The notes below the pieces were generated by a model. That model made no database searches and was not told where the DNA came from. It saw only the letters and a program-made list of their open reading frames with translations. Positions 6,819-61,038 of a stretch of DNA of 64,000 nt are shown here, in pieces. Numbering within the stretch: position 1 is the first letter of the stretch; every line of letters starts with the position of its first letter. Both the position numbers and the translations under genes were made by a program. The DNA is from Burkholderia pyrrocinia (lineage in GTDB: Bacteria > Pseudomonadota > Gammaproteobacteria > Burkholderiales > Burkholderiaceae): NCBI RefSeq assembly GCF_022809715.1, contig NZ_CP094459.1, forward strand, positions 124,001 through 188,000, read 5' to 3'.

Positions 6819-9154
<2,336 letters not shown>

Positions 9155-9167
9155 GGGTCATGTGATC

Positions 9168-9380
9168 GGAGTAAGCGCTGAAGCGCTAACTCCCGTCGAC
9201 CGCCGCAGGGCAAGAGTAAGCGCTGAAGCGCTAACTCTTGCCAACCGCGGCATGGGGCGGGAGTAAGTGCTGAAGCACTAACTCCGGTCGACCGCCGCGG
9301 GGCAAGAGTAGACGCTGAAGCGCCAACTCTTGCCAACCGCGGCATGGGACGGGAGTAAGCGCTAAAGCGCTAACTCCCGT
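9168..9380 (+). repeat. Array of five related hairpins between atpD and atpC
   Basis: Five imperfect palindromes lie at about 9168-9193, 9211-9240, 9260-9285, 9301-9334 and 9349-9380, spaced alternately by 43 and 48-49 bp. Each has an outer arm (GGAGT...ACTCC or CAAGAGT...ACTCTTG), an A-A mismatch, an inner arm AGCGCT paired with AGCGCT and a two-base loop (GA or AA). Copy 3 has AGTGCT paired with AGCACT, a compensated change. The two arm types alternate, so the real unit is about 92 bp (two hairpins) repeated 2.5 times. The spacers (CGTCGACCGCCGC and CCAACCGCGGCATGGG) are also repeated. The array lies inside the atp transcript and ends 14 bp before atpC. A role in mRNA stability or in setting the epsilon level is plausible but inferred. 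Confidence 0.9.
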
Positions 9381-9394
9381 CGACAGGAGTCGAT

Positions 9395-9820
9395 ATGGCA
9401 ACCATCAAAGTAGACGTCGTCAGCGCGGAAGAGCAGATCTTCTCGGGCGAGGCGAAATTCGTCGCGCTGCCGGGCGAAACGGGTGAGCTGGGTATTCTGC
9501 CGGGCCACACGCCGCTGATCACGCGGATTCGTCCGGGTGCGGTGCGCATCGAAGTCGAGGGCGGCAACGACGAATTCGTGTTCGTCGCGGGCGGCATTCT
9601 CGAAGTGCAGCCGGGCGCCGTGACGGTGCTCGCCGATACCGCGATCCGCGGCAAGGACCTCGACGCGGCGAAAGCCGAGGAAGCGCGCAAGCGTGCCGAG
9701 GAAACGCTGCAGAACGCGAAGTCGGATCTCGACCTCGCGAAGGCGCAATCCGAGCTCGCGACCGCGATGGCGCAGCTCGAGGCGATCCAGCGTCTGGCGA
9801 AGATCCGCAGCCGGCACTGA
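9395..9820 (+). CDS. atpC: ATP synthase F1 subunit epsilon
   Basis: The 141-residue protein couples the gamma shaft to the c-ring and can inhibit ATP hydrolysis. The N-terminal beta-sandwich (about residues 1-85) contains the conserved [18 protein letters not shown], and the C-terminal half is two charged helices ending [11 protein letters not shown]. The ribosome site AGGAG (9385-9389) directly follows the last hairpin of the upstream array. This is the last gene of the operon, with an intrinsic terminator 27 bp later. Confidence 0.96.
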
Positions 9821-11853: not shown

Positions 11854-11882
11854 ACGAAAAAAAGCGGGCTTATTAGCCCGCT
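11854..11882 (-). terminator. Intrinsic terminator, oriented for minus-strand transcription
   Basis: AGCGGGCTTATTAGCCCGCT (11863-11882) is a perfect 8-bp stem with a four-base loop. Read on the minus strand it is followed by a run of seven T. On the plus strand the following bases are AAAAACC, so it is a poor terminator for the acyl-CoA synthetase gene. It implies a minus-strand transcript ending here, arriving from the 12.1 kb segment or beyond. Confidence 0.7.
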
Positions 11883-12130
11883 AAAAACCACACGCTACGG
11901 GGTTAGCGCGAGGAGACCAAAGATGAAACCGAGTCCGGCGGGGGGCCGGAAACGACTCCAACAGGGATGCCCCTGGGAAGGGCTTCGGTACGTGACCGAC
12001 TGGCTCGCAGCGCTTCGCGTCCGCTCACACTTGGCACACGAGACCGCATCCGTGTTGAAACCGTTGAGGCCATTGTGGGCGAATTACCGACCCATCGCGG
12101 TAACAAAGTGTTTCAGGTTGTAACGCCCGC
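11883..12130 (-). ncRNA. Candidate structured small RNA (or small-ORF transcript)
   Basis: This 250-bp segment has lower G+C than its neighbours, lies outside any known gene and abuts a minus-strand terminator. It can form strong stems: CCGGC...GCCGG flanked by GAGT...ACTC at about 11934-11963, and CGCTA...TAGCG near 11893. No match to 6S, 4.5S, tmRNA, RNase P, cobalamin, TPP, FMN or glycine motifs was recognised. A minus-strand RNA is favoured because of the terminator, but the opposite strand carries a 66-codon frame with a ribosome site (separate entry). Function is unknown. Confidence 0.35.
11923..12123 (+). CDS. Possible small protein, unknown (66 codons)
   Basis: ATG 11923 is preceded by GCGAGGAGACCAAAG, a good ribosome site at proper spacing. 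The product would be basic and tryptophan-containing (MKPSPAGGRKRLQQGCPW...), without signal peptide, membrane helix or recognisable domain. The reading frame overlaps the candidate minus-strand RNA, so only one of the two readings need be real. Codon use lacks the strong G/C third-position bias of neighbouring genes, which argues against a conserved protein. Confidence 0.2.
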   Translation: MKPSPAGGRKRLQQGCPWEGLRYVTDWLAALRVRSHLAHETASVLKPLRPLWANYRPIAVTKCFRL

Positions 12131-60682: not shown

Positions 60683-60771
60683 CGAGGCCTCAGGCAAGGC
60701 GCTTGCGCGCGGATCAGAACGGCCATGTGCCGACCACCGCGGCCGACGGGCTGCGAGCGATCCGGTACATG

Positions 60772-61031
60772 CCCCTCTGTCCTCGATACCTGAGAGATTG
60801 CGCCGCGGGCAAAGCCCGGCGAGCGCGCGCCCCTTCGGTGGGCAGCTTGCCCGCGCAGCATGTGCGCAGCGGGCTACTGCCGCTCTCCAGAGTGCGGGGA
60901 GTGCGGCCCGCGCAATGCGCGGACGGGATTCCCCGACGCGGTCGGTCCTTTTGCCTGAGAGTTTGCGGGTGTGCCCCTTCGGCGGCGCGACCGGCGTTGC
61001 AGCAACGCGGTCACACGCTCTCCCGACGCGT
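60772..61031 (-). promoter_or_regulatory. Tandem glycine riboswitch controlling gcvTHP
   Basis: On the minus strand two aptamers occur in series. The first (about 61031-60945) has GGGAGAGCGT, GCCGAAGGGGCA and ACTCTCAGGCAAAAGGACCG. The second (about 60895-60772) has CTGGAGAGCGG, CACCGAAGGGGCG and TCTCTCAGGTATCGAGGAC. These are the conserved blocks of the glycine riboswitch, and the double-aptamer form with a short linker is the classic arrangement upstream of gcvT. In other bacteria it switches expression on when glycine is high. A predicted promoter begins transcription at its 5' edge. Confidence 0.95.
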
Positions 61032-61038
61032 GCGGGCG

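Follow-up and report, generated by a model that had tools for sequence, protein, structure and literature searches.

A dispersed family of 43-nt hairpins situated mostly on the sense strand directly before Shine–Dalgarno sequences in Burkholderia, with a five-unit array between atpD and atpC

The hairpin array between atpD and atpC of Burkholderia pyrrocinia belongs to a dispersed family of 43-nt hairpins and is not a device of the atp operon. The defining feature of this family is its position and strand: The units mostly precede the ribosome-binding sites of many unrelated genes in one direction and are therefore candidates for a widespread element of RNA control or RNA stability. Judging from the sequences compared, we lean towards the reading that the array belongs to a dispersed, REP-like hairpin that has been retained as an RNA element at ribosome-binding sites. 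The original prediction, which was based on the array, had missed the link to the Shine–Dalgarno (SD) sequence of the next gene.

Within the window, by which we mean the whole analyzed stretch of 64,000 nt, a covariance model resolves the atpD–atpC gap into five hairpin units of 43 nt that occupy positions 9158–9384 (Table 1), and thereby bears out the five palindromes that had been proposed before the epsilon gene. The arm types alternate in the order A-B-A-B-A, as had been noticed, and the third copy is indeed altered in both arms; the supposed rhythm of 43 and 48–49 bp has to be replaced by start-to-start spacings of 45, 47, 45, and 47 nt. The first unit begins 3 nt after the stop codon of atpD, whose protein we take to start with MSTAALVEG, and the array ends 1 nt before the GGAG of the atpC SD. 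The consensus unit comprises GCATGG, nine outer base pairs, a 1×1 A·A mismatch, five inner base pairs, a URAA loop (UGAA or UAAA, closed by a C–G pair), and the tail GAC. The predicted fold of the 246-nt array stretch amounts to −157.1 kcal/mol compared to −92.9 kcal/mol (sd 5.1) for 200 dinucleotide shuffles (z = −12.5), and 0/200 shuffles reached the fold energy of the array. With up to three mismatches, the core pattern occurs 14 times on both strands of the window against 1.5 expected, ten of these matches being the five atp units counted on each strand. Promoter-like or terminator-like consensus sites were not found in 9100–9450, nor was an intrinsic terminator with a GC-rich stem and a T run (0 found), and both functions were rejected on these grounds. 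The array has no match in Rfam, as all matches at relaxed thresholds lie far under the gathering scores; elsewhere in the window, Rfam recognizes the Bp1_781 sRNA and two adjacent glycine riboswitch aptamers on the minus strand (11856–12082 and 60767–61035).

Table 1. Features of the atpD–atpC region in window coordinates.
Feature	Position	Strand	Basis and remarks
atpD (F1 beta), 464 aa	7760..9154	+	within longer mechanical ORF 7439–9154; stop codon 9152–9154
Hairpin unit 1, type A	9158..9200	+	arms GGAGT/ACTCC, tail GTCGAC; 59.6 bits, covariance model
Hairpin unit 2, type B	9203..9245	+	arms GGCAAGAGT/ACTCTTGCC, tail CCAAC; 56.5 bits, covariance model
Hairpin unit 3, type A	9250..9292	+	inner arms altered on both sides, GTGC/GCAC; 62.9 bits, covariance model
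Hairpin unit 4, type B	9295..9337	+	inner stem in part unpaired (AGACGC/GCGCC); 55.0 bits, covariance model
Hairpin unit 5, type A, SD-proximal	9342..9384	+	tail GTCGAC up to 9384; 70.5 bits, covariance model
Shine–Dalgarno AGGAG of atpC	9385..9389	+	sequence; directly 3′ of unit 5
atpC (F1 epsilon), 141 aa	9395..9820	+	ORF; ATG at 9395

A genome-wide search for the repeat core, as suggested at the outset, was rewarded: Using a covariance model built from 36 units of the B. pyrrocinia genome, we found at least 70 units at 36 places in this genome at E-values up to 0.006 (150 of 5068 candidates scored), weak echoes of the palindrome on the other strand starting at E 0.008. The family has a period of 49 nt, or of 92 nt for A–B pairs, and six of the 36 places are in rRNA operons. 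A restriction of the repeat to one strain, which the original prediction had named as speaking against it, was not seen: According to the covariance model, units are present in 37/37 genomes of the genus and in 0/24 genomes from other families. Within the Burkholderiaceae, at least 60/150 genomes and at least 8/25 genera carry units (up to 42 candidates scored per genome), and an order-wide draw yielded units in at least 4/399 genomes, all four from the same family (up to 16 candidates scored per genome). The named records with units belong to Burkholderia, Paraburkholderia, and Caballeronia; further ones are a metagenome-assembled genome labelled Pandoraea and Trinickia soli, where the unit is not in the atpC gap. 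Twenty matched records are plasmids or chromids, and a single array in genome G129 contains 14 units. A phage origin was rejected, as a 238-nt query had no match in a phage collection of 50,697 records.

The relation to the SD was assessed by a strict test, according to which a GGAG has to lie at most 12 nt from the last unit and be followed after 3–12 nt by a start codon that opens a reading frame of at least 60 codons. Among the 34 arrays of the B. pyrrocinia genome outside rRNA operons, of which 30 belong to the 36 places and four are weaker, 26 pass this test, compared to 0/34 on the mirror strand read from the opposite end and to 198 of 19887 intergenic points (1.0%) as background, the latter with crude gene calls in the window alone; by the same calls, 17/47 intergenic GGAG sites in the window are such starts. 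The commonest distance between tail and GGAG is 1 nt (14/26 passing arrays). Two of the 26 passes are thin, one array (L041) passing only by a TTG start and the other (L044) by a 61-codon ORF with no Pfam match. The eight failing arrays are of several kinds: L040, L043, and L148 have a GGAG at 1–3 nt without a long ORF in frame, L143, L146, L150, and L151 stand before Pfam-recognized genes with an SD that is different or farther away or with a misplaced unit end (L150), and L051 has no SD at that place. The array of L043 (C1:3309559–3309601) is followed by a good SD and an ATG whose frame ends after 11 codons.

From 30 starts read by eye, 28 downstream proteins were long enough to be scanned, and a Pfam family was recognized in 27 of these. 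The products include allantoicase, a GMC oxidoreductase, two acyl-CoA dehydrogenases, NadA, two aldehyde dehydrogenases, a thiolase, ExbD, a member of the citrate synthase family (methylcitrate synthase-like, PrpC), PrpF, a hydroxyisobutyrate dehydrogenase-like protein, permeases, and a RidA-like protein, among others. Of the 20 plasmid or chromid records matched, 16 named loci were read and 11 passed the strict test; in L313, L319, and L326 a start codon is present by eye but its SD is weaker or lies farther away, and in L318 and L322 there is no start after the unit. The upstream neighbor, judged crudely by third-position GC, points in the same direction at atpD and before mmsB and is apparently divergent at some other sites. 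At nadA, a terminator-like GGGGTTTTTT is located upstream of the unit in L285 and L299 and is present somewhere in 30/30 nadA loci, and the unit there therefore seems to be situated within a leader. Units away from SDs are found in rRNA spacers, on the antisense strand, and, in G093, in the interior of another repeat. The units in rRNA operons are antisense to the rRNA and tRNA genes; five with identical sequence are in tRNA-Ile/tRNA-Ala spacers (L137–L141) and one is between the 23S and 5S rRNA (L144).

Two direct effects on the SD were considered and rejected. Over 23 loci, the predicted accessibility of the SD is 0.49 with the array present, 0.53 with the array removed, and 0.45 with the array shuffled (p = 0.96 and 0.31; 12 mononucleotide shuffles per locus), so that no difference is predicted that would make the hairpin an opener of the SD. 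Sequestration of the SD by the 3′ arm (ACTCC vs GGAGT) fits atpC and, as judged by eye, misfits the loci with other arms.

The arms of the units vary from copy to copy yet pair with each other, also at the fixed sites atpC and nadA. Across the 36 units of the B. pyrrocinia genome, 93.5% of the cells are paired compared to 80.8% (sd 0.9) in shuffles, 10/14 pairs display double changes, and the covariation score is 0.419 compared to at most 0.115 with slid partners, which pair in at most 37.1%. A second set, drawn mostly from other genera and comprising 104 units (51 distinct), is paired in 94.6% compared to 86.2% (sd 0.5) in shuffles, its alignment being fitted by the model and hence biased towards it. 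Covariation between species is also seen in the orthologous atpC hairpin, which is represented here by unit 5: From 110 parsed gaps, the others being empty or missed by the pattern, 58 rows were obtained after removal of two false ones (L085 and L087) from 60, and the 55 distinct hairpins are paired in 93.7% compared to 80.0% (sd 1.0) in shuffles, with 76 double-changed cells against 27 (sd 3.6, maximum 40) and pairing of 29–52% with slid partners. At nadA, the hairpin is present in 29/30 loci (the best-matching 30 of 46 genomes); its 26 distinct versions, without the empty L299 and including L309, which is one base out of register, are paired in 95.9% compared to 85.5% (sd 0.9), with 45 double changes against 12.7 (sd 3.3) in shuffles and with further pair types (15 vs 14.2) not above the shuffles. 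The loop, the inner stem, and the ends are near-fixed, the middle of the outer stem is variable, and the A·A mismatch is conserved in 26/36 and 21/26 copies and pairable in only 3/36 and 1/26. The proposed selection on structure has thus gained support, as the covariation exceeds both shuffles and slid partners, these controls leaving shared descent in so that relatedness inflates the shuffle-based values; selection would then act on the form of the RNA.

The atpD–atpC gap illustrates how units are gained, lost, and multiplied at a fixed site. No intact unit is present in 19 of 61 Burkholderia genomes, and the remaining gaps contain one (25 gaps, counting L224, by eye, and the nested-looking L232 as one unit each), two (1), three (14), five (1, our B. 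pyrrocinia genome), or 13 units (1). The A(BA)n pattern with mostly odd numbers suggests that these arrays grew by 92-nt BA blocks. In 6/61 genomes, CTCAACC is followed directly by AGGAGTCGAT with the same SD and no hairpin, whereas other genomes carry a unit exactly in between; these hairpin-less relatives show that the unit lies exactly before the SD. The motif ATGAGAT[TC]GGAG occurs in 13/61 gaps, including 12 of the 19 that lack an intact unit, and appears to be a remnant in which the 5′ half of the unit is fused to the SD via the common GGAGT. The unit at atpC is often lost and is not essential there, since its absence from 19/61 genomes makes it dispensable. In a wider search, 25/50 loci, of 80 named, had a unit in this gap (model, E up to 0.1). 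In L252 (G203) the gap is reduced to 9 nt, all else being gone. The gap of many species also carries another, unrelated inverted-repeat stretch upstream (by eye). In L070, L084, L085, L087, and L093, extra units occur about 2.5 kb upstream of atpC, near the locus starts, probably in another gap of the atp operon. The mmsB site is filled in 7/30 loci (the best-matching 30 of 46 genomes); here, the B. pyrrocinia genome has four units and G024 none, although the two genomes agree to 99% in the first 251 nt of the gene. The genome-wide copies and the gain and loss at fixed sites speak for the mobile repeat family that had been proposed, of which only the label intercistronic seems too narrow in view of nadA.

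Units also insert as wholes. In L175, L176, and L180, one unit is nested with sharp ends within the loop of another, and the hairpin therefore moves as a unit. In G093, L174, and L186, a unit lies inside a GC-rich repeat, and 17 of the 21 such repeats found open with an SD-like stretch and an ATG when read on the other strand; a recurring short ORF in these repeats (L152–L170 in G093, L174, L186) crosses the hairpin in antisense. The 20 loci taken from G093 contain 23 identical units. As to a mobilizing enzyme, no unit was found in the 6.3-kb loci around either of the two Y1_Tnp genes of the B. pyrrocinia genome, and mobilization by a RAYT was rejected on this basis. A RAYT-like protein encoded at C1:381171–381881 (L056:2972–3685) has QVQ at the expected position of the HUH motif and is possibly domesticated. 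Its homologues occur in 134/150 genomes of the family compared to 60/150 for the hairpin; as they are far more widespread than the hairpin, co-occurrence proves nothing.

The main rival to a hairpin retained for use is a selfish palindrome of the REP or MITE type, useless to the cell, that inserts into single-stranded or hairpin DNA and near GGAG; purging of copies within genes, of those separating an SD from its start codon, and of wrongly oriented ones would then leave the copies that abut an SD. This possibility, which we take seriously while doubting it, is in keeping with the nested units, the insertions into the GC-rich repeat and the identical copies in G093, the recent gain or loss at mmsB, and the copies in rRNA spacers. 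Purging alone, however, fails to put units beside the SD where the gap offers room upstream, as at atpC and nadA, and fails to yield the complete absence of mirror-strand passes; moreover, only about a third of the intergenic GGAG sites in the window are starts, no transposase is linked to the units in the B. pyrrocinia genome, and the hairpin at nadA is kept with paired changes in nearly all of the best-matching loci. The selfish reading may hold for the spreading of the units while the retained copies are used.

A different objection is directed at the paired changes, which would be unselected if template switching during replication mended the palindromes and conversion homogenized the units. 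Whole-block differences between arms (GACGGG vs GATCGG at atpC) are frequent and within a site the units of several arrays are uniform, as this process would have it. Mending should, however, erase the central A·A mismatch, whose retention therefore disfavors simple palindrome mending, and inner changes such as GTGC/GCAC are single paired changes; we consider an origin of this kind quite unlikely. Hardly credible is the notion, raised in the original prediction, of a device peculiar to the atp operon that adjusts the synthesis of epsilon to that of beta: It draws on the location between atpD and atpC and on the second inverted-repeat stretch in that gap, but the same units precede many unrelated genes and nearly a third of the genus genomes lack an intact unit at atpC, which makes it improbable, and the genome-wide copies led us to discard it.

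For the retained RNA element that we favor, the following course is plausible. Units would be deposited by some copying process, multiply in tandem at a site, and persist chiefly where transcription runs through them in sense and an SD follows their end directly. In the mRNA they would most likely form a 5′ structural element of the downstream cistron and thereby affect its translation or stability, serving as a nuclease barrier and/or as a site for a factor that recognizes the URAA loop, the stem with its A·A mismatch, and the GCATGG/GTCGAC ends; the middle of the stem would be free to vary as long as pairing persists. A bolder version, which we advance as a rather unlikely conjecture, is that an RNA-binding factor binds to the units and that these make up a post-transcriptional regulon, which would comprise about 30 mRNAs in this genome and similar sets elsewhere in the Burkholderia clade; a mobile hairpin would have built it by bringing a finished control site, singly or in up to 14 copies, to the front of a gene. 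One candidate reader is the HUH-less RAYT-like protein, although genera that lack the hairpin have homologues of it as well. Should the units act at the ribosome-binding site, one RNA element is being distributed by a mobile repeat to dozens of catabolic and housekeeping genes across a large clade; copy number would then be a ready dial, and whether palindromic repeats of bacteria are parasites or regulators would become testable gene by gene on natural filled and empty alleles.

In the open-license papers that we found, the family is undescribed, and only one contains its core sequence. The covered passages of two B. cenocepacia transcriptome papers (PMC5688073, PMC4603805) hold no description of it, and a search of PMC12306157 found no mention of Burkholderia names. 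The earlier sighting in print is a table of software-called, putative CRISPR repeats without cas genes in Paraburkholderia terrae, where a 25-nt repeat equals the unit core with GCGT/ACGC arms (PMC5968390, table). The unique spacers of a CRISPR array are missing, as the sequence between units is short and recurrent, and this automated call can accordingly be corrected.

Similar in kind are the REP/BIME palindromes, which carry GTAG or CGTC tags and which, as described in the main text of PMC3733652, resemble the units in being short, extragenic, palindromic, present in many copies and in clusters, with heterogeneous stems and variation between species; Burkholderia is not mentioned in that main text. 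The units share with REPs that they are short extragenic palindromes in many copies (70 in the B. pyrrocinia genome, E up to 0.006). They differ in that they lack an unpaired GTAG or CGTC, the unpaired ends of the consensus being GCATGG and GAC; in that array units in the B. pyrrocinia genome run head to tail on one strand instead of alternating in orientation; in that this genome has no RAYT flanked by the repeat as in the GTAG type; and in that they are tied to the SD of the downstream gene. In their placement they recall the TAACTGA direct repeats of marine Beggiatoaceae, for which a post-transcriptional role is proposed and arrays are described just upstream of the start codons of unrelated genes in forward orientation (PMC4679880). 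Those repeats are heptamers and overlap the place where ribosome binding is expected, a canonical SD being rare there (PMC4679880), whereas the Burkholderia units are 43-nt hairpins. The latter end beside an intact SD. Stable hairpins just upstream of an SD are also familiar from intercistronic stabilizers and standby sites in polycistronic or leader RNAs; these are single, unrelated structures, whereas the units all belong to one sequence family that stands in front of many genes across several genera. With exceptions, the units display the sense-strand location, the short distance to the SD, and the covarying structure of cis-acting mRNA elements. Outside the REP class and with no match in Rfam, they are best read as a REP-like dispersed hairpin.
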